Of a DNA stretch of 64,000 nt, positions 25,289-64,000 are shown one piece after another. The notes under the pieces are model-generated. The model was not told the DNA's origin. It made no database searches and saw only the letters and a list, made by a program, of their open reading frames with translations. This stretch comes from Mycetocola sp. (lineage in GTDB: Bacteria > Actinomycetota > Actinomycetes > Actinomycetales > Microbacteriaceae). The stretch is from NCBI RefSeq assembly GCF_025464835.1, contig NZ_JAODMP010000016.1:1-64000 (forward strand), read 5' to 3'. Every line of letters begins with the position of its first letter. The first letter of the stretch is position 1. The position numbers and the translations under genes were made by a program.

Positions 25289-28135
25289 ATGGCTACGACC
25301 AGCAAATCGTCCAGCCGCGGTCGGGGCACGCCGGCGAGCGGAGGAAAACCGAGCGTCCGCAAGGCACCGGCAAAGGCAGCGCCGGTGAAAAACGCCACGG
25401 CCAAGACAACCAAACTCCCGACAGCAAAAACCGTCGCCTACCCAGCCGAGACGACCGAGAACGTGTTCGTCAAGATGTGGATGGGACTCGCCCATCTCGC
25501 CGGTGGCACAGCCCGCGCCTTCGGCCCTGAACGATTTGCCAAGGAAGAACGCCGCGACGGAATCCCGTTCCTCATCCTCCTGCTTGCCATCGTTGGCATG
25601 GTCGTCCAATGGTTCGGCGTGAACAACGAGGTCGCCCAGAACCTCAACGCCTTCACCTTCGGCGGTATCTTCGGGCGTCTCGCATTCGCGCTTCCCGTCG
25701 TCATGTTGCTGCTGGCCATCTGGCTCTTCCGGCATCCGAGCTCCGTCAACGACAACGGCAGGATCGGCATCGGCCTGATCCTGGCGCTCGTCGCCGTCGC
25801 CGGACTGTGCCACGCCCTCGGCGGCCAGCCAAGCCCGAGCGAGGGCATGCCTGCGCTCGCGGTCGCCGGCGGGCTCGTCGGCTGGATCGTGGGAGCACCG
25901 CTGGTCGCACTGATCACACAGGTCGGCGCCGCCATCGTCCTCTCCCTTCTGCTTCTGCTGAGCCTGTTCATCATCACGAAGACACCACCGAACAAGGTCG
26001 GCAGCCGACTCCATGAGCTCTACGCGTGGACCTTCGGCACCGAACTCCCTTCCCCGGAGGAACGCGAAGCGGCGAAGCTCGAACGGACGAAGCAGGTCGA
26101 ACTGTCCGGGCTCGACGGCCTCGAGTCCGACGACGAAGAGACCGACGATTCCCTGCCATGGTGGCGACGCAACAAGAGCCAGCGCGAGATCGATCCCGCG
26201 TTCGATTCCGCACTCGAGACCGACGACGTGAGCGAACTGCTCGGCGGCCCGCGCGGCGGCAACGGAGAATTCGATTCGGCGCTCGAGGGCCAGGACCTCG
26301 ATGTCTTCGGCAACCCGATCGACGATGTCGACGATGAGGGGATGACCGAGATCATCGGCGACCTCTCCGCCGCCGAGGCCGCTCTTGATACGTTCAACGC
26401 GACGGGCGAACCCACCTCAGGGCTGCACGACGACGGCCCCGGCGGGCAGACCGAGGCGCTTCCTGGCATGGAAGGCCTCGGGCTGATGGACGACACCAGC
26501 CCGCAGCGGATGACCCGCCCGACAGCCCCGACGGCTCCCTACCGCCTTCCGTCCGCCTCGACCCTCGGCGCAGGCGATCCGGCGAAGACCCGCTCGGCGG
26601 CCAACGACGAAGTCGTCGCCGCCGTCACCAGCGTGCTCACCCAGTTCAAGGTCGACGCCAAGGTCACCGGGTTCTCCCGCGGGCCGACCGTCACCCAGTA
26701 CGAGATCGAGGTCGGCCCGGGCGTGAAGGTCGAGCGCATCACGGCGCTGACCAACAACATCGCCTATGCCGTGGCCTCCAACGAGGTCCGTATCCTCGCT
26801 CCGATCCCCGGCAAGAGCGCCATCGGCGTCGAAATCCCCAACACGGACCGTGAGATCGTGACCCTCGGCGACGTCCTCCGATCGGGGAACGCCACCAAGA
26901 GCGTCCACCCGATGACCATCGGAGTCGGCAAGGACGTCGGCGGCGGGTTCGTCGTCGCGAACCTCGCCAAGATGCCCCACCTCCTCGTGGCCGGCTCCAC
27001 CGGTTCGGGTAAGTCGAGCTTCATCAACTCGATGATCACAAGCCTGCTCATGCGCGCCAAACCGAGCGACGTGCGCATGGTGCTGATCGACCCGAAGCGC
27101 GTCGAACTGTCCTCGTATGCCGGCGTTCCGCACCTCATCACACCCATCATCACCAACCCGAAGAAGGCGGCGGAAGCGCTGCAGTGGGTGGTGAAGGAGA
27201 TGGACATGCGGTACGACGACCTCGCCAGCTTCGGATTCCGGCACATCGACGACTTCAACAAGGCTGTCGTGAACGACGAGATCGTGCTTCCCGCAGGCAG
27301 CGAACGGGTGCTCAAACCATACCCGTACCTGCTTGTCGTCGTCGATGAGCTCGCAGACCTGATGATGGTCGCGCCCCGTGACGTCGAGGACTCGATCGTC
27401 CGCATCACCCAGCTCGCGCGAGCATCCGGCATCCACCTCGTCCTCGCCACCCAGCGACCGTCTGTCGACGTCGTCACAGGGCTGATCAAGGCGAACGTTC
27501 CGTCGCGGCTCGCTTTCGCCGTGACGAGCGTCACCGACTCCCGCGTCATCCTCGACCAGCCGGGTGCCGACAAGCTGATCGGGCAGGGCGACGGGCTGTT
27601 CCTCCCGATGGGAACGAACAAAGCGATCCGTGTGCAGGGCGCCTGGGTGTCCGAGGCGGAGATCGAGAAGGTCGTCAAGCACGTCACCCAGCAGGCGCGA
27701 CCCGAATACCGCAAGGATGTGGCGGCGATCACCGAGCGGAAGGAGGTCGACGCCGACATCGGGGACGACCTCGATCTGCTCCTCGCCGCAACCGAGCTCG
27801 TCGTCGGCACCCAGTTCGGGTCGACGTCGATGCTGCAGCGGAAGCTTCGAGTCGGGTTCGCGAAGGCCGGCCGCCTGATGGACCTGATGGAGTCGCGGGA
27901 GATCGTCGGCCCATCGGAGGGGTCGAAGGCGCGGGACGTTCTCGTCACCGCCGAGCAGCTGCCAGGGCTTCTGGCGAAGCTCAAGGGCGAGGACGGTCCG
28001 TCCTTCGCCCCAGCGTCGGCGTCGGAGCCGGACGATCGTTATGACGGCGACAAGGTCGAAGACCAGTTCGCCGGTTACGATGTAGTGGAGGGCGAATCCG
28101 ACGAGGACGCCTGGCACCTCACCGGCAAGGATTAG
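25289..28135 (+). CDS. ftsK: FtsK/SpoIIIE DNA translocase
   Basis: Membrane-anchored ATPase that pumps chromosome ends through the division septum. An Arg/Lys/Ala-rich N terminus precedes four to five membrane helices (about residues 85-235), then an acidic linker and the motor. Walker A is [12 protein letters not shown], Walker [12 protein letters not shown]. The C-terminal gamma domain that reads KOPS-like sequences is present ([20 protein letters not shown]). Length 948 aa. ATG 25289 chosen; a longer frame starts at 25250 but ignores the -10. First gene of ftsK-pgsA-cinA. Confidence 0.96.
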
Positions 28136-54099: not shown

Positions 54100-56625
54100 A
54101 TGCGGGTGCCTCTGAGTTGGCTCGCCGAATACGTCGATCTCGCACCGGGATCGACGACAGAAGACGTCCACGCCGCACTGGTGAAGGTCGGCCTTGAAGA
54201 GGAAGACGTTCACGCCTTCGACGTCACAGGACCGGTCGTCGTCGGGGAGGTTCTCGAGTTCGTCGAGGAACCCCAGAAGAACGGCAAGACCATTCGCTGG
54301 TGCCAGGTGCGGGTCGCGCCGGACGGCGAACTCGCCGCTGACGGCGGCCCCGCCATCCACGGCGTCGTCTGCGGAGCCGACAACTTCTTCGTCGGCGACA
54401 AGGTTGTCGTGACCCTGCCCGGTTCGGTGCTGCCCGGCCCGTTCCCGATCGCCGCCCGCAAGACCTACGGCCATGTCTCCGACGGAATGATCGCTTCCAC
54501 GCGTGAACTCGGCCTCGGTGACGAGCACGACGGCATCCTCCGCCTGTCAACGCTCGGCGTCGACGCCGAGGTCGGTACGGATGCCATCACGCTGCTCGGT
54601 CTGGATGACGCAGCGGTCGAGATCAACGTCACCCCGGATCGCGGCTATGCGTTCTCCATCCGCGGTGTCGCCAGGGAGTACTCCCACGCTACCGGGGTCG
54701 CCTTCAGTGACCCTGCCGCCCGGCAGGAGCTTGAGACACCGATCGGCGACGGTTACCCCGTCGCGATCGACGACATCGCCCCGATCCGCGGACGTCAGGG
54801 TGCAAGCGTCTTCGCGACCCGTGTTGTGCGGGGCGTCGATGCAACACGACCGACACCGCCGTGGATGGTGTCGCGACTGAAGCTCGCCGGCATCCGATCG
54901 ATCTCGCTGCTCGTCGACATCACCAACTATGTGATGCTCGAACTCGGCCAGCCGATCCACGGTTATGACCTCGATTCGCTCACCGGCGGCATCGTCGTGC
55001 GCAGGGCCATCGCGGCCGAGACGCTTGAGACGCTCGACGGGCAGAAGCGCGTTCTCGACCGTGAGGACCTGCTCATCACCGACGGTTCAGGCGCGATCGG
55101 CCTCGCCGGAGTGATGGGCGGCGCGCACACCGAAATGAGCGCAACGACAACGAACGTGCTCATCGAGGCGGCGAACTTCGACCCTGTGTCGATCGCCCGC
55201 ACCGCTCGCAGGCACAAGCTACCGAGCGAGGCTTCCCGGCGGTTCGAACGCGGGGTCGATCCTCGCATCGCCGTCGCCTCAGCGGCACGGGTGGCTGAGC
55301 TCATGGTCACCCTCGCCGGCGGCACAGCGGATGCCGTCGCCGGCCTCGTCGGTGAACCCGAAGAGCCCTCTGCGATTCGGTTCCCGAGCGGGTACGTCTC
55401 CGCTTTGATCGGCGTCGACTACACCGACGACGAGATTCGCGGTTCCCTCGAAGAGATCGGTGCAACGATCGCCGACTCCGATGGTGCGCTGCTCGTCACC
55501 CCGCCGAGCTGGCGCCCCGACCTGCTCGACAAGTCCGACCTGGCGGAGGAGGTCGCCCGCATCGTGGGCTATGACCGGATCCCGTCCGTGCTCCCGGTGG
55601 CTCCCGCCGGGCGCGGGCTGACCCGCTCGCAGCGCATCCGCCGCACGGTGGCCGACTCGCTCGCAGCGGCCGGATCGACCGAGATCCTCGCATTCCCGTT
55701 CCTCGGTGCCACTGACAACGACCTGTACGGCTCGCCCGTCGACGGGGAAGTCCCGGCGATCAAGGTCGCCAACGCCCTCGACGCAAGCGCGCCGTACCTG
55801 CGGACCACCCTGATCCCCGGGCTGATCGAAGCGGCGAAGCGCAACCTCGCCCGCGGCCTGACCGACCTGTCGCTGTTCGAGGTCGGACTGATCTTTACCC
55901 CGGAAGCCGGGAAAAGCTACGGCCAGGCTGAGCTGCCCTCCGGTGTCACCCTGCCGACCGACGAACAGCTCGCCGAGCTCAACACGGGCATCCCGCCGCA
56001 GCCGCGCCACGTCGGGGTCCTGATCCTCGGCAACGCCGTACCGAAGCAGCCAGGGCAGCCAGCGGTCCCGTCCGGCATCGCGGATGCTCTCGCCGCTGTC
56101 ACCCAGATCGGGCTCGCGACCGGTGCGACGATCGAGGTCGTGCAGGGCAGCCACAAGGCTCTGCACCCGGGGCGGACCGCCGAATTGCGGATCGGCGACC
56201 GGTCGATCGGCTTTGCCGGTGAACTGCTGCCGCGGCTCGCGCTCGACTCAGACCTGCCGCGCGTCGTCGCCGTCGTCGAACTCGACCTCGATGCGCTGCT
56301 CGAGTCGACGGACGTGCCCTTCACCGCCGGGGTGATCGGCACGCTCCCAGCCGCTACGCAGGACCTCTCGCTCGTGGTCTCGGTGGACGCGCCTGCCGCT
56401 GCCGTCGGTGCCGCGGTACGTGAGGGTGCAGGTTCGCTGCTTGAAGACATCCGACTGGTCGATGACTACCGCGGCCCCGGCCTCGCCGACGGCACCAAGA
56501 GCCTCACCTTCGCGCTGCGGTTCCGGGCGCCGGATCGCACGCTCACGGCGGCGGAGGCCTCCGAGGCAAAGCTCGCCGGTTCCGCCCTCGCGGCTGAGCG
56601 CTTCGGGGCGCACATCCGCGACTAA
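54100..56625 (+). CDS. pheT: Phenylalanine--tRNA ligase, beta subunit
   Basis: The 841-residue partner subunit. Domains in order: EMAP/tRNA-binding (residues 40-150), B3/B4 editing region (ITNYVMLELGQPIHGYDLD and MGGAHTEMS), B5, a catalytic-like core, and a C-terminal anticodon-binding FDX-ACB domain (PAATQDLSLVVS to the end). ATG 54100 is one base after the pheS stop. The first copy of a palindromic repeat family starts 3 bases after its stop. Confidence 0.96.
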   Translation: MRVPLSWLAEYVDLAPGSTTEDVHAALVKVGLEEEDVHAFDVTGPVVVGEVLEFVEEPQKNGKTIRWCQVRVAPDGELAADGGPAIHGVVCGADNFFVGDKVVVTLPGSVLPGPFPIAARKTYGHVSDGMIASTRELGLGDEHDGILRLSTLGVDAEVGTDAITLLGLDDAAVEINVTPDRGYAFSIRGVAREYSHATGVAFSDPAARQELETPIGDGYPVAIDDIAPIRGRQGASVFATRVVRGVDATRPTPPWMVSRLKLAGIRSISLLVDITNYVMLELGQPIHGYDLDSLTGGIVVRRAIAAETLETLDGQKRVLDREDLLITDGSGAIGLAGVMGGAHTEMSATTTNVLIEAANFDPVSIARTARRHKLPSEASRRFERGVDPRIAVASAARVAELMVTLAGGTADAVAGLVGEPEEPSAIRFPSGYVSALIGVDYTDDEIRGSLEEIGATIADSDGALLVTPPSWRPDLLDKSDLAEEVARIVGYDRIPSVLPVAPAGRGLTRSQRIRRTVADSLAAAGSTEILAFPFLGATDNDLYGSPVDGEVPAIKVANALDASAPYLRTTLIPGLIEAAKRNLARGLTDLSLFEVGLIFTPEAGKSYGQAELPSGVTLPTDEQLAELNTGIPPQPRHVGVLILGNAVPKQPGQPAVPSGIADALAAVTQIGLATGATIEVVQGSHKALHPGRTAELRIGDRSIGFAGELLPRLALDSDLPRVVAVVELDLDALLESTDVPFTAGVIGTLPAATQDLSLVVSVDAPAAAVGAAVREGAGSLLEDIRLVDDYRGPGLADGTKSLTFALRFRAPDRTLTAAEASEAKLAGSALAAERFGAHIRD

Positions 56626-58963: not shown

Positions 58964-59146
58964 CGGGTGTTCCTCGGGCTCGGGCTCGGCGGCGCTGACC
59001 CGGAGTGCCTCGCGAGAAGCCAAAAGTGGTTTGCTAACCGACCCGCGGCATCCGATACCCGACCGTTATTGGTATCTCGGGGCGCTGATGGATGTCCAGG
59101 CCAGCGGGGTCTGTGCAGTGACGCACCGTGGCATGATCAAAGGACC

Positions 59147-61672
59147 ATGACAGCCCAGCCGAAGCTCGACCCGCACGCCCTCCGCGAGAGAATCGGCGAC
59201 ACCGTGGAACCGGATGCCGTCTACGACGCGTTCTCCGACTGGGTGACGGCCACAGGCATCCGGATGTATCCGGCTCAGGATGAAGCGATCATCGAGATCG
59301 TGTCAGGGCAGAACCTGATCCTCAGCACCCCCACCGGAACAGGCAAGTCCCTCGTCGCCGTCGGCGCGCACTATGCCGCCCTCGTCGCCGGCAAGCGCAG
59401 CTTCTACACCGCACCGATCAAGGCCCTCGTCAGCGAGAAGTTCTTCGCCCTCGTCGAGGTGTTCGGGCCGGAGAACGTCGGCATGATGACCGGAGACTCC
59501 TCCGTCAACGCCGACGCGCCGATCATCTGCTGCACGGCGGAAATCCTCGCCAACCTTGCCCTCCGCAACGGGGAGGACACCGAGGTCGACCAGGTGGTGA
59601 TGGACGAGTTCCACTTCTACGCCGATCCCGAGCGTGGCTGGGCCTGGCAGGTTCCGCTGCTGTGCCTGCCCCGGGTGCAGTTCATCCTGCTCTCGGCGAC
59701 CCTCGGAGACGTGACGGCGCTCGCCGAAGACCTCACCAGGCGTACCGGTCGGGAAACGGCGCTCGTCACCGGGGTCGAACGACCCGTTCCCCTGCACTTC
59801 TATTACGAGACGACACCGATCCACGAGAGTGTCGACGAGCTGCTGACCACGGGGCAGGCGCCCGTCTACGTCGTTCACTTCTCGCAGGCCGCCGCCATGG
59901 AGCGAGCCCAGTCGATGTCGAGCATGAAGGTGGCGACGCGGGAACAACGGGATGCCATCGCCGAGTTGATCGGCGAATTCCGCTTCACCACGAGTTTCGG
60001 CAAGACGCTGTCGCGGCTGATCCGTGCCGGGATCGGCGTGCACCACGCCGGCATGCTGCCGAAGTACCGCAGACTCGTCGAGCAACTCGCGCAGCGGGGG
60101 ATGCTCCGGGTGATCTGCGGCACCGACACGCTCGGGGTCGGCATCAACGTGCCCATCCGCACCGTGCTGTTCACCGCGCTCACCAAGTACGACGGCACGA
60201 AGATGCGCCAGCTCAAAGCCCGTGAGTTCCACCAGATCGCCGGTCGCGCCGGCCGCGCAGGTTTCGACACAGCAGGGACCGTCGTCGTGCAGGCGCCGGA
60301 GCACGAGACCGAGAACCTCAACGCCATCAAGAAGGCGGGCGACGACCCCAAGAAGAAGCGCAAGATCATCCGCAAGAAGGCCCCGGACGGGTTCGTGTCG
60401 TGGGGTGAACCGTCGTTCCAGCGGATCGTCGCCGCCGAGCCGGAGACGCTGACCTCCAGCATGCAGATCACCTCCGCGATGCTGATCAACGTGATCGGGC
60501 GTGGGGGAGACGTGTACAGGCATGTGCACGACCTCGTCTTCGACAACCACGAGCCGTTCAAACGCCAGCTCGAGCTGGCTCGCCGTGCGCTCGGCATCTA
60601 CCGCACCCTGCGCGAATCGGGAATCGTCGAGCAGTCCGCGGACGGCACCATCCGGCTCACCGTCGACCTGCAGCCGAACTTCGCTCTCAACCAGCCGCTG
60701 TCCCCGTTCGCGCTCGCCGCGTTCGAGCTCCTCGATCCTGAAGACCCCGGTTACGCCCTCGACATGATCTCGATCGTCGAAGCGACCCTCGACAACCCGC
60801 GGGCCGTTCTCAGCCAGCAGCAATTCCTGGCGCGCGGCGAAGCGGTCGCCGCGATGAAGGCTGAAGGCATCGAATACGACCAGCGGATGGAGCTGCTCGA
60901 GCAGATCACCCACCCGAAACCGCTCGAGGAACTGCTCACCGTCACCTTCGAGACGTACAGTGCGGCCCAGCCGTGGATCCGCGACTTCGAACTGAACCCC
61001 AAGTCGATCGTGCGGGACATGTATGAACGGGCCATGTCGTTCGGTGAGTTCATCGCCTTCTACAAGCTCGCCCGCTCCGAGGGCGTCGTGCTGCGCTACC
61101 TGTCCGATGCCTACCGGGCTGCCCGGCAGACCATTCCGGACGACGTCAAGACCGAGGACCTCCTCGACCTGATCGAGTGGCTCGGTGAGCTCGTACGGCA
61201 GGTCGACTCGAGCCTGCTCGACGAGTGGGAGGAACTCAGCCACCCGGACCCCGAGAAGCACGCCGAGCACGCCCACGACATCGTCCCGCCCGCCCCGAAG
61301 CGGCTCACCGGCAACACCAGAGCCTTCCGCATCCTCGTCCGCAACGAACTGTTCCGCCGGGTGCAGCTCGCCGCCCTCGAAGACTACGACGCTCTCGGCG
61401 AACTCGACGCGGCATCCGGATTCGACGGCGACCGCTGGGCGGACTCGCTCGACGCGTACTTCGAGGAATACGACCAGATCCTCACCGGCCCAGACGCCCG
61501 CAGTTCGGCGCTCCTGATCCTCGACGAGAGCGGACCGGTATGGACCGCTCGCCAGATCCTCGACGATCCCGCGGGCGACCACGACTGGGGCGTCAGCGCG
61601 ACCATCGACCTCGCCGAATCCGACGAGCAGGGCTTCGCCGTCGTCACCGTCACCGGCGTCAACCGGTTGTAG
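59147..61672 (+). CDS. DEAD/DEAH-box superfamily II helicase, DUF3516 type
   Basis: An 841-residue Ski2-like RNA/DNA helicase of a kind common in actinobacteria. Motif I is STPTGTGKSLV, motif II DEFH (in VMDEFHFYADP), motif III LSATLGD, motif VI QIAGRAGRAGFDT. The C-terminal 400 residues, with the basic patch DPKKKRKIIRKKAPDG, form the DUF3516 domain of unknown role. ATG 59147 has AAAGGA six bases upstream; the longer open frame runs back through the pnuC remnant. Single gene; substrate unknown. The 58964-59146 stretch shows nothing else. Confidence 0.9.
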   Translation: MTAQPKLDPHALRERIGDTVEPDAVYDAFSDWVTATGIRMYPAQDEAIIEIVSGQNLILSTPTGTGKSLVAVGAHYAALVAGKRSFYTAPIKALVSEKFFALVEVFGPENVGMMTGDSSVNADAPIICCTAEILANLALRNGEDTEVDQVVMDEFHFYADPERGWAWQVPLLCLPRVQFILLSATLGDVTALAEDLTRRTGRETALVTGVERPVPLHFYYETTPIHESVDELLTTGQAPVYVVHFSQAAAMERAQSMSSMKVATREQRDAIAELIGEFRFTTSFGKTLSRLIRAGIGVHHAGMLPKYRRLVEQLAQRGMLRVICGTDTLGVGINVPIRTVLFTALTKYDGTKMRQLKAREFHQIAGRAGRAGFDTAGTVVVQAPEHETENLNAIKKAGDDPKKKRKIIRKKAPDGFVSWGEPSFQRIVAAEPETLTSSMQITSAMLINVIGRGGDVYRHVHDLVFDNHEPFKRQLELARRALGIYRTLRESGIVEQSADGTIRLTVDLQPNFALNQPLSPFALAAFELLDPEDPGYALDMISIVEATLDNPRAVLSQQQFLARGEAVAAMKAEGIEYDQRMELLEQITHPKPLEELLTVTFETYSAAQPWIRDFELNPKSIVRDMYERAMSFGEFIAFYKLARSEGVVLRYLSDAYRAARQTIPDDVKTEDLLDLIEWLGELVRQVDSSLLDEWEELSHPDPEKHAEHAHDIVPPAPKRLTGNTRAFRILVRNELFRRVQLAALEDYDALGELDAASGFDGDRWADSLDAYFEEYDQILTGPDARSSALLILDESGPVWTARQILDDPAGDHDWGVSATIDLAESDEQGFAVVTVTGVNRL

Positions 61673-61709
61673 CATCGGCCTCGATTAGCGGATGCCACGG
61701 GCGAGCCAC

Positions 61710-61715
61710 TACAGT
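61710..61715 (+). promoter_or_regulatory. -10 element of the argCJ operon
   Basis: TACAGT, 176 bases before argC but exactly 6 bases before the ATG of a 27-codon leader frame. Same spacing as the leaderless genes of the window. Confidence 0.5.
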
Positions 61716-61721
61716 CGATGC

Positions 61722-61805
61722 ATGGCCATCTCCGACAGCAGCGTTCGTGCACAGGGTTTCTCCCCGTGCGCCCTGCGTCGACGCCGTACCTCCGAGCGAC
61801 GATAG
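61722..61805 (+). CDS. Putative arginine-rich leader peptide of the arg operon
   Basis: A 27-codon frame beginning 6 bases after TACAGT and ending 85 bases before argC. The peptide starts MAISDSSVRAQGF and ends CALRRRRTSERR before TAG: seven Arg in 27, with four consecutive and two at the very end, three of the seven being CGA. This is how leader peptides sense a charged tRNA. CCTGCGTCG (61772-61780), which covers Arg codons 19-20, can pair with CGACGCCAGG (61807-61816, one bulge), so a ribosome stalled there would open the stem. No homologue is known to me; Arg-rich frames are frequent by chance in this GC range. Confidence 0.5.
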   Translation: MAISDSSVRAQGFSPCALRRRRTSERR

Positions 61806-61835
61806 GCGACGCCAGGCGACCCGTGCACTGCACGA
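61772..61835 (+). promoter_or_regulatory. Possible attenuator structures before argC
   Basis: Stem 1: 61772-61780 with 61807-61816. Stem 2: CGTGC-ACT-GCACG at 61822-61834. A competing pairing is TCGTGCA (61745-61751, at the first Arg codon) with TGCACGA (61829-61835). No T-run follows, so any control would be translational or Rho-linked rather than intrinsic termination. Confidence 0.35.
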
Positions 61836-61890
61836 TTCCGACAGGCGCCGCCGAACCTCCCACCGATCGTTTCCTCAATAAGGTAGAGCC

Positions 61891-62940
61891 ATGTCCTTTT
61901 CTGTAGCGGTAGCCGGCGCATCCGGTTACGCAGGGGGCGAGCTGCTGCGATTGCTCGCGGCGCACCCCGACTTCGACATCCAGACCGTCACCGCACACTC
62001 CAACGCCGGCCAGCAGCTGGCATCCGTGCAGCCGCATCTGCGTTCCCTCGCCCACCTCACTCTCGCCGAGACAACGCCAGAGAACCTCGCCGGCCACGAC
62101 GTCGTCTTTCTCGCGCTGCCGCACGGCAAGTCCGGTGAGGTGACCGCTCAGCTCGACGAGGCAAGCCTCGTCGTCGACTGCGGTGCTGACCACCGGCTGA
62201 CGAGCGAAAGAGACTGGGCGTCGTTCTACGGCGGCGAGTTCTTCGGAGCGTGGGAGTATGGCGTGCCGGAGCTGATCGTCGGAGCTGGCGGCGCCAAGCA
62301 GCGGGAGAAGCTCGCCGGTGTACGGCGGATCGCCGCCCCCGGTTGCAACGCGAGCACCGTCGCACTCTCGCTCGCCCCCGGCGTTGCCGCCGGCGTGATC
62401 GAGACCACAGACGTCGTCACCGTCCTTGCCGTCGGTCCGTCCGGTGCAGGCAAGGCGCTCAAGACCAACCTCCTCGCCTCCGAGATCCTCGGGTCGGCGA
62501 ACCCGTACGCCGTCGGCGGGACGCACCGGCACATTCCCGAGATCGCCCAGGCGCTCCGTGGTGCAGGGGCCGCCGATGTGAGCATCTCGTTCACCCCCGT
62601 TCTCGTGCCGATGTCGCGAGGCATCCTGGCCACCTCGACTGCCCGCATCGTGCCTGGGACCAGTGCGGATGCCGTCCGCGGGGCTTGGCAGGACGCCTAC
62701 GGCAGCGAGACCTTCGTGCAGTTGCTGCCAGCGGGGGAGTTCCCGCGCACCGCAGATGTCCTCGGTTCGAATTCGATGCTCATGGGGATCGCCGTCGATG
62801 AGGCCGCAGGCCGCGTCGTCGTGGTCACCGCCGTCGACAACCTTGCCAAAGGCACTGCAGGTGCCGCCATCCAATCTGCCAACATCGCTCTTGGCCTGAA
62901 CGAATCGACCGGCCTTCCGGTGAACGGAGTCGCACCATGA
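61891..62940 (+). CDS. argC: N-acetyl-gamma-glutamyl-phosphate reductase
   Basis: Third step of arginine synthesis: reduces N-acetylglutamyl phosphate with NADPH. The Rossmann start [18 protein letters not shown] and the catalytic cysteine in [17 protein letters not shown] are intact. 349 aa. AAGG lies 8 bases before ATG. Its stop overlaps argJ by ATGA. Control may come from the leader peptide at 61722; no ARG box for ArgR was recognised. Confidence 0.96.
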
Positions 62941-64000
62941 CCGTCACATCAGCTCAGGGTTTCGAAGCCGCCGGCATCGCCGTCGGCCTGAAGGCATCAG
63001 GGGGCAAGGACCTCGCCCTCGTCGTCAACCGCGGCCCTCGGTACTCTTCGGCGGCGGTGTTCACCAGCAACCGCGCCCAGGCGAACCCCATCCTCTGGTC
63101 GAAGCAGGTCATCGCCGACGGCACGGTCAGCGCCATCGTGCTCAACTCGGGCGGAGCCAACTGTTTCACCGGCCCGCAAGGTTTCCAGGCGACGCACGCC
63201 ACAGCTGAAGCGGTCGCAGCGGAGCTCGGCGTCTCAGCCGGGGACGTCCTGGTCTGCTCCACCGGCCTGATCGGCGAACAGCTCGACACAGACAAGCTGC
63301 TCCCTGGCGTCGCCGCGGCCGCCGCCGCGCTCGGCGCGGACGGGGGAGCGGATGCCGCAGAAGCGATCCTGACCACAGACAGTCACCCCAAGACGGCAGT
63401 GATCGAGCGCGACGGCTGGACCATCGGTGGCATGGCCAAGGGCGCAGGCATGCTCGCCCCAGGACTCGCGACCATGCTCGTCGTCCTCACCACCGACGCG
63501 AGCCTCGCCTCCGACCAGCTCGACCGTGCCCTCCGTTCGGCAACCCGGGTGAGCTTCGACCGGCTCGACTCGGACGGCTGCATGTCGACCAATGACCAGG
63601 TGTCGCTTCTCGCCTCCGGCGCCTCAGGAGTGGAACCCAACGCTGAGGTCTTCGCCGAGGCGCTGCGTGAGATCTGCCTCGACCTCGCTCGCCAGTTGCA
63701 GGGGGACGCGGAGGGCGCCGCCCACGACATCACCATCGAGGTCGTCGGCGCGGTCAGCGAGGACGATGCGGTCGAGGTCGGCCGGTCCGTCGCCCGCAAC
63801 AACCTGTTCAAAGCGGCGGTGTTCGGAAACGACCCCAACTGGGGCCGTGTCCTCGCCGCGATCGGAACCACCGAGGCGCCGTTCGACCCGTACGCCGTCG
63901 ACGTGACCATGAACGGCATCCGGGTCTGCCACGCAGGCGCACCCGACCAATCCCGCGACCTCGTCGACCTCACCGGGCGTGAGGTGCACGTGCTGATCGA
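62937..64000 (+). CDS. argJ: Glutamate N-acetyltransferase / amino-acid acetyltransferase, 3' end outside window
   Basis: Recycles the acetyl group between acetylornithine and glutamate, and in bifunctional forms also uses acetyl-CoA. About 354 residues are visible of the usual 385-400. The self-cleavage motif is in [18 protein letters not shown], where the Thr of ATML becomes the nucleophile of the beta chain. [15 protein letters not shown] near the end is also typical. Coupled to argC by ATGA. Confidence 0.95.

Follow-up and report, generated by a model that had tools for sequence, protein, structure and literature searches.

A putative arginine-sensing leader in front of argC in Microbacteriaceae, a family in which ArgR was not detected

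What does a short, arginine-rich reading frame do directly in front of argC, in a family whose genomes appear to lack the arginine repressor? The question is raised by a Mycetocola genome, of which one stretch of 64,000 nucleotides was analysed (the window). According to the original prediction, TACAGT stands exactly 6 bases before the ATG of a 27-codon frame that holds seven Arg codons, four in a row (19-22) and two at the end (26-27), and the arrangement follows the logic of amino-acid attenuation. The coordinates check out on the sequence, and the Arg codons match the translated frame at 61722-61805 (MAISDSSVRAQGFSPCALRRRRTSERR), where they are at positions 9, 19-22, 26 and 27. The attenuation logic was borne out for the leader itself (an Arg-rich, leaderless-type ORF before argC, with conserved start spacing, frame and Arg cluster) and not for the pairings that had been drawn. 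We predict with good confidence that the leader serves arginine-sensing attenuation of argC. It probably does so as an arginine-responsive, ribosome-mediated attenuator that took over from ArgR and switches between two RNA helices, B:C and C:D.

Leader and gene neighbourhood in the Mycetocola window

The leader is a short ORF directly 5' of the arginine operon, with codons for the end product clustered in the predicted translated frame (Table 1). Sites of this type are scarce. The motif TANNNT occurs 6-7 nt before ATG or GTG at 22 sites on both strands of the 64-kb window (128 kb), and one of the 22, that of the argC leader, opens a frame of 18-40 codons. The predicted -35 region is weak; several relatives have TTGGCG or TTGCGG at the same place, and a -35-like hexamer with four of six matches to TTGACA (best of four spacings) was identified in 14 of 41 leader representatives, which were chosen for having four or more Arg codons and the largest share of Arg.

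Table 1. Coordinates of the features of the leader-argC region, as positions in the window
Feature	Position	Strand	Remarks
Helicase gene with DUF3516 domain	58967-61672		Upstream neighbour of the leader-argC region
-35-like hexamer TTAGCG	61685-61690	+	Weak, putative; 19 nt 5' of the -10 element; 3 of 6 matches to TTGACA
-10 element TACAGT (TANNNT)	61710-61715	+	6 nt between the element and the leader ATG
Leader-peptide ORF, leaderless-type	61722-61805	+	27 codons, MAISDSSVRAQGFSPCALRRRRTSERR; stop TAG at 61803-61805
Segment A1, Arg run	61776-61787	+	Codons 19-22 (CGT CGA CGC CGT)
Segment A2, Arg codons 26-27	61797-61802	+	Contains CGA (61797-61799), the invariant in-frame codon
Segment B, GGCGACGCC	61805-61813	+	First base is the last base of the stop codon
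Segment C, GGCGCCGCC	61844-61852	+	8 of 9 pairs with B; A-C mismatch 61809/61848
Segment D region	61862-61878	+	Partner of the 5' half of C in many relatives; in Mycetocola the pairing is weak, -5.3 kcal/mol
TAAGGT	61879-61884	+	Contains the argC Shine-Dalgarno sequence AAGG (61880-61883); also a possible TANNNT -10, 6 nt 5' of argC
argC, N-acetyl-gamma-glutamyl-phosphate reductase	61891-62940	+	Pfam semialdehyde dehydrogenase domains; named from domains and operon
Next operon gene	62937-63998	+	Runs off the window edge; presumably argJ (glutamate N-acetyltransferase), from the known arg operon layout

By eye, no U run follows segments C or D in the window or in the leaders of relatives. Thus, an intrinsic terminator appears to be lacking, as had been noted originally for this message. 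Rfam gave no match in the whole window at the gathering score, nor in the interval 61600-61960 at E up to 1.

The C-terminal domain of pheT was identified at 56344-56619 of the window, some 5.3 kb from argC on its upstream side. Many relatives have pheT immediately before argC. Thus, we infer that genes were inserted or moved between the two in Mycetocola.

Distribution of the leader and of ArgR

A strict criterion (TANNNT, a 6-7 nt spacer, ATG or GTG, 18-40 codons, at least 20% Arg, an RR pair and a stop at least 40 nt before argC) selected 67 of 120 Microbacteriaceae argC loci. It selected none of 40 argC loci in other families of the order and none of 40 in other orders of the class. The 120 loci run from L001 to L124, with four left out: L008, whose contig was too short, the distant L014 and L015, and L043, whose position was uncertain. 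They include duplicates (e.g., L002/L016 and L009/L034) and several loci per genus, and L046, for which the argC start was wrongly assigned, is scored as a miss. Because the 86 group labels of this set mix genus codes and names, the genus tally was taken from a covariance-model scan.

The covariance model was trained on 52 aligned leaders. At E up to 0.01 it matched 78 of 149 Microbacteriaceae genomes and 44 of 78 genera, counts that include the training genomes (many training rows came from the genomes then scanned). With E up to 2.4e-4 there are 77 matches, of which 65 have a listed argC position. In 63 of these 65 the match stops on the final base of the argC start codon. The remaining two (G039 and G113) end just before a listed argC match that starts at residue 2, and hence likewise at the start codon; the element is continuous down to that codon. 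In an order-level draw of 119 genomes, the model matched 8 of 9 family members and 1 of 110 others (not at argC), and no match in the upstream regions of 80 control argC loci was better than E 0.015. Five weak extra matches occur in family genomes (E 0.001-0.007). A match in another family, away from argC, was identified on the minus strand of contig C1 of G440 (68044-68173, E 3.8e-5). The only other match in the window below E 0.3 (position 26550, E 0.008) is inside a long CDS, which we take to be FtsK-like from reading its sequence, and was regarded as chance.

Close relatives thus do have an Arg-rich frame, and across the argC upstream regions of the family the start spacing, frame and Arg cluster are kept and the rest of the peptide drifts. 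In the leader frame of the 41 representatives (chosen with at least 4 Arg), 311 of 1113 codons (27.9%) encode Arg, compared with 14.4% and 15.9% when the same DNA is read in its two other frames. In 200 nucleotide shuffles the number of Arg codons averaged 163 and never exceeded 199. The leaders start with ATG (25) or GTG (16), stop with TAG (25) or TGA (16), and have a spacer of 6 nt (37 of 41) or 7 nt (4 of 41) after TANNNT, where the selection allowed 6-8 nt. The choice of ORFs favoured Arg, so the frame and spacing counts hold partly by construction, a bias that is limited by the rarity of such TANNNT starts in the window. The N-terminal part drifts (MAISDSSVRAQGFSPCALRRRRTSERR compared with MPSATQGLPTLLPSAAPARRRRLGERRL or MLSARRTPLALAIPAVPALRRRRADRRI). 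Among four Mycetocola rows with leaders of equal length, 28 of 40 pairwise codon differences are nonsynonymous, which argues against strong purifying selection on the peptide as a whole. Thus, conservation falls on the Arg cluster and not on the peptide.

Every one of the 311 leader Arg codons is CGN, and 292 of them are CGC, CGA or CGT; for comparison, these three make up 54 of the 94 Arg codons in three window genes. CGC, CGA and CGT are decoded by one tRNA (anticodon ICG). An additional Arg pair, CGG CGC at codons 5-6, is common to the leaders of g43, g63, g28, g55, g69, g57 and g8 (loci L021, L025, L048, L052, L095, L088 and L056), and CGG is otherwise rare.

Genes for ArgR were not identified in the family. 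Arg_repressor (PF01316) was found in 0 of 92 Microbacteriaceae genomes (77 genera), with controls positive in 9 of 14 genomes, and the ArgR C-terminal domain (PF02863) likewise in 0 of 92, with controls positive in 8 of 14; the controls that matched include Corynebacterium glutamicum and E. coli. In the order-level draw, PF01316 is present in 0 of 9 family genomes and in 108 of 110 genomes of other families. The pattern TGTAT(A/G)NNNATNC, drawn up after the sequences had been seen, is presumably ARG-box-like, by its resemblance to ArgR sites. It occurs within 40 nt of the argC start at 22 of 40 loci in other families of the order, and TGTAT(A/G) occurs within 60 nt of argC at 31 of the 40, mostly on a leaderless-type -10 element. 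The corresponding counts for other orders of the class are 3 of 40 and 10 of 40 loci. Near argC in Microbacteriaceae, neither was found at any of the 120 loci. The last 20 nt before argC in the other families (L125-L164) often have a leaderless look, with ARG-box-like TGTATAGTTATGCAC on the -10 element.

The start of argC itself differs between the groups. An SD-like sequence precedes argC in 41 of 41 leader representatives, compared with 5 of 28 hand-picked family loci without a leader and 2 of 40 from the order's other families. TANNNT without a Shine-Dalgarno sequence is found at argC in 23 of the same 28 leader-less family loci and in 32 of the 40 loci of other families. About half of the genera of the family have no leader, though they too have no ArgR. 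In such genera (L055, L057, L058, L074, L080, L081, L085, L087, L091, L092 and others) argC has a leaderless look, of the TAGATTTGACGC-ATG type, with no ArgR, ARG-box-like site or leader.

The earlier arrangement was apparently a leaderless argC controlled by ArgR, followed by the loss of ArgR and of the operator-like site in the family; in the leader lineages, argC looks to have been placed behind a Shine-Dalgarno sequence and an upstream leaderless ORF. With ArgR gone from the family, the leader has a job, and since an Arg-rich frame is present in roughly half the genera of a family without ArgR, the ribosome itself probably senses arginine. When mapped onto an ArgC tree (49 rows), the presence of the leader requires 7 changes, compared with 16.5 in shuffles, and both of the main ingroup clusters contain leaders (support 86/88 and 87/92). 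The tree suggests that the leader arose early in the family and was lost several times; it may also have spread horizontally, and the deep branches are weakly supported.

Helices, ribosome states and the proposed switch

The helices were studied in an alignment of 52 rows (three of them pheT ends), hand-picked from 75 candidate leaders; the other 23 candidates are close copies, L010, and rows without a clear B or C. Segment B (GGCGAC...) begins at the stop codon in leaders of the TAG class and is read through in those of the TGA class. Segment C (...GTCGCC or GCCGCC) is about 40 nt 5' of argC, before the argC ribosome-binding site. The GGCG core of B and the CGCC core of C are invariant in 52 of 52 rows. 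A CGA codon adjoins B in frame in all 52 (49 leaders and 3 pheT ends), and an automatic rule applied to all 75 candidates found in-frame CGA by B in 66, the misses being three with a misplaced automatic B (g63), one with CGT (L082) and five without B. CGA is a slow codon. The first Arg codon within the 12-48 nt 5' of B is 23-47 nt from B in 41 of 41 representatives.

In the B:C columns 88.5% of cells pair, a share that 1 of 500 shuffles reaches. Fourteen cells are changed on both sides, but 100 of 500 shuffles hold as many pairs changed in this way, and covariation is no lower when the partner is slid by 2 or 3 columns (21 cells; score 0.121 vs 0.120). Thus, only the share of paired cells stands out for these columns. 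From the 52 rows RNAalifold retains just the four B:C pairs that never vary and reports no covariation term. For C:D, 53% of cells pair in one fixed register. The register seems to shift between clades, and a register-free partner-swap test was therefore used, in which each leader's own duplex is compared with duplexes whose partners were exchanged among 43 representatives (two of them pheT ends; B was set by hand or from the stop codon in L025, L050, L052, L073 and L107).

The swap test favours the native duplex for B:C (-16.3 vs -15.3 when swapped, with 3 of 1000 permutations as good) and for the 5' half of C with D (-10.6 vs -9.4, with 1 of 1000 as good); kinship among the genomes makes swap and covariation tests look stronger than they are. 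The test thereby supports B:C and C:D, which share C, and gives no such support to a helix of the Arg codons with B. For the same 43 representatives, permutations as good number 209 of 1000 for the Arg run with B (a pairing that is possible in each), 154 of 1000 for the last Arg codons with B, and 663 of 1000 for the Arg run with C. Two pairings had been drawn originally. The one between 61772-61780 (CCTGCGTCG) and 61807-61816 (CGACGCCAGG) can indeed form, with one bulge, and has no covariation signal (the 209 of 1000 given above). The other, between 61745-61751 (TCGTGCA) and 61829-61835, is an exact reverse complement that is not conserved in the genus, leader codon 9 (CGT, within this pairing) being TCA or TTC in the five other Mycetocola rows compared. 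The conserved helix instead joins 61805-61813 with 61844-61852.

The 41 representatives were folded in four states, with the RNA left free downstream of the ribosome. By default the free leader folds into B:C (mean 6.0 pairs). A ribosome stalled on the upstream Arg codons leaves this almost unchanged (5.9 pairs), whereas one at the stop codon all but removes it (0.14), and C:D pairs then rise from 2.4 to 4.8 (Wilcoxon p 0.0002; 21 up and 6 down of 41). B:C and C:D, which would be mutually exclusive as both use C, exchange in the folds as the ribosome moves, but the slid-partner counts are not clean. The fold of the window has no C:D, and that of L003 has neither helix; in Mycetocola C:D is weak and B:C has its one A-C mismatch. 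Predicted exposure of the Shine-Dalgarno sequence is equal between states (0.53 free, 0.56 stalled and 0.58 at the stop codon in the 41 representatives), which speaks against its direct burial. Pairing of the D region is equal as well (0.53, 0.50 and 0.51), D having other partners when C is taken. Shuffle z-scores for the fold from C to the ATG range from -3.4 to +2.2, with 40 of 53 within 1 of zero, and so fold stability carries no weight in the argument.

We propose that transcription starts at the leader ATG, so that a 70S ribosome would begin translation at the extreme 5' end. When Arg-tRNA is scarce, the ribosome would stall on Arg codons 23-47 nt upstream of B and leave B exposed. B would then pair with C through the GGCG:CGCC core, C would be kept from D upstream of the Shine-Dalgarno sequence, and argC would be expressed. 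When arginine is ample, the ribosome would reach the conserved CGA and the stop codon, at or near B; covering B, it would allow C to pair with D, and argC output would go down. The equal exposure of the Shine-Dalgarno sequence, the equal pairing of the D region and the opening costs given below agree poorly with this scheme, and we see an even balance for this direction of the switch (stalling, B:C and argC on; run-off, C:D and argC off). We likewise see an equal chance for and against the full account of a ribosome swapped in for a repressor, in which, after the loss of ArgR and its operator, the leaderless Arg ORF with its B:C/C:D switch would control argC and would read mainly the charging of one tRNA (CGU, CGC and CGA), with the invariant CGA at the hairpin.

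The same sensor may drive the opposite switch, a reading that we hold to be possible and rather unlikely. B:C would then be an OFF hairpin that a ribosome on the last Arg codons (the CGA by B) keeps open, with argC on, and with ample arginine the ribosome would leave and B:C would close. This agrees with the in-frame CGA by B in all 52 aligned rows, with B:C as the default fold of the free leader, and with the cost of opening the argC start region, which reaches its minimum when the ribosome sits on the last CGA, for two of three regions (compared with the free leader, -1.3 kcal/mol and p 0.003 for -20..+13; -1.5 kcal/mol and p 0.0004 for -35..+13). However, the opening effect is small, stems from a comparison of three regions by three states and partly from shortening of the RNA, and is absent from the core region -13..+3 (-0.1 kcal/mol, p 0.64). 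A ribosome at the stop codon would cover B too, so that the two arginine states differ little, and in the window B:C stops 38 nt short of argC, leaving the Shine-Dalgarno sequence unburied. A ribosome-opened OFF hairpin of this type has been proposed for the polycysteine ORFs of mycobacteria.

It is improbable that the leader is an independent leaderless small gene and that argC, uncontrolled by it, is expressed from its own leaderless promoter. A second promoter could lie at TAAGGT, 6 nt before the argC ATG, and 30 of the 41 leader representatives (the window included) also fit TANNNT at argC, as do, without a Shine-Dalgarno sequence, most of the leader-less family loci (23 of 28, hand-picked) and the loci of other families (32 of 40). 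Yet the SD-like sequence is present in all 41 representatives, is kept in the 11 that lost TANNNT and is rare (5 of 28) in family loci without the leader, and the element is unbroken up to the argC start codon. Slightly less probable still is that B and C are the halves of a site for a regulatory protein (a DNA operator, or a target of an RNA-binding protein), with the Arg codons as a by-product of a GC-rich motif. The invariance of GGCG and CGCC in 52 of 52 rows is indeed more than pairing needs, but the distance between B and C varies by tens of bases, the Arg-rich frame is the predicted translated frame, set by the -10 element and the start codon, and the Arg codons reach well outside B and C. 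The objection, raised with the original prediction, that GC-rich DNA often gives Arg-rich frames by chance is correct in that Arg codons are frequent at this base composition (14-16% in the other two frames as well). For the leader it is refuted by conservation and can be given almost no credence, as the site is the sole one of its kind in the window, recurs in 44 of 78 genera and is absent from the 80 control loci.

Related systems and leader variants

Ribosome-mediated attenuation, the kind of control that we propose for argC, is known, and arginine appears to be the new part. The earlier doubt whether such a system had been described stands for arginine and falls for the design, since a leaderless attenuator without a terminator is exemplified by the polycysteine ORFs of mycobacteria. 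These leaderless short ORFs, reportedly the subject of Canestrari et al. 2020 (Mol Microbiol 114:93), resemble the argC leader in that they are actinobacterial, short, leaderless, endowed with a run of codons for the end product, and located before a biosynthesis operon. They differ in that cysteine takes the place of arginine, and the argC leader is from another family and linked to the loss of a DNA-binding repressor. The polycysteine ORFs are said to act via RNA structure before the downstream RBS, whereas burial of the RBS was not found in the argC leader folds; they are also said to occur at several loci per genome, whereas the argC leader is one strong site per genome, at argC.

The ilvB1 leader of Mycobacterium tuberculosis has a ribosome at the uORF stop that masks one arm of a helix, and an upstream stall that frees the arm; the cysteine genes of M. 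smegmatis are described as under translation attenuation (PMC13236596). As is proposed for the argC leader, ilvB1 combines a uORF with regulatory codons and a masking geometry, the one that we adopted here. Unlike it, ilvB1 responds to branched-chain amino acids and has an intrinsic terminator with a U tract, which is not seen at the argC leader. Actinobacterial leader peptides have been identified for trp, cys, ilv and leuS (Seliverstov et al., 2005; PMC1262725). These also precede amino-acid genes, and their cys leaders, too, are without obvious terminators. Attenuation is known for many amino acids, and the same 2005 survey reports none for arginine in actinobacteria and no conserved RNA regulatory structure upstream of actinobacterial arginine operons (PMC1262725). 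In Streptomyces, ArgR and ARG boxes are found at argC (PMC3293853). The same first gene of the pathway is controlled there by a DNA-binding regulator, whereas the protein and the ARG-box-like motif are absent in Microbacteriaceae.

Among the matches listed in the open-licence literature, no bacterial arginine-codon attenuator was found, which is not proof of absence. The fungal arginine attenuator peptide is a eukaryotic arrest peptide with a conserved sequence that senses free arginine. It is similar in being an upstream ORF that responds to arginine, as we propose for the argC leader, and differs in that the argC leader peptide drifts and its Arg codons are kept. If the proposal is correct, the leader would be a bacterial arginine-codon attenuator and a traceable replacement of DNA-level by ribosome-level control. 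The putative switch accompanies the loss of ArgR throughout the family, with sister families keeping ArgR and often an operator-like site on argC. It would provide a comparative system for the replacement of a repressor by ribosome sensing, and a handle for leaderless translation and CGA decoding.

The leaders of g76 (L032) and g84 (L076) end like PheT (GERLRATLRD and GERLGASFPG, respectively), and as some leader ends resemble the PheT C terminus we considered the leader as a severed pheT end. An intact-looking pheT end is present 190-222 nt before argC, upstream of the leader, in L032, L049, L056, L064, L065 and L070. Thus, the leader is not simply a severed pheT end. In L062, L078, L103 and L066 (genera g4, g31 and g35) there is no separate leader and translation of pheT itself may take its part. 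In these loci the last pheT codons supply segment B (with ERFGATLRD in three of the four), and C and the Shine-Dalgarno sequence come after.
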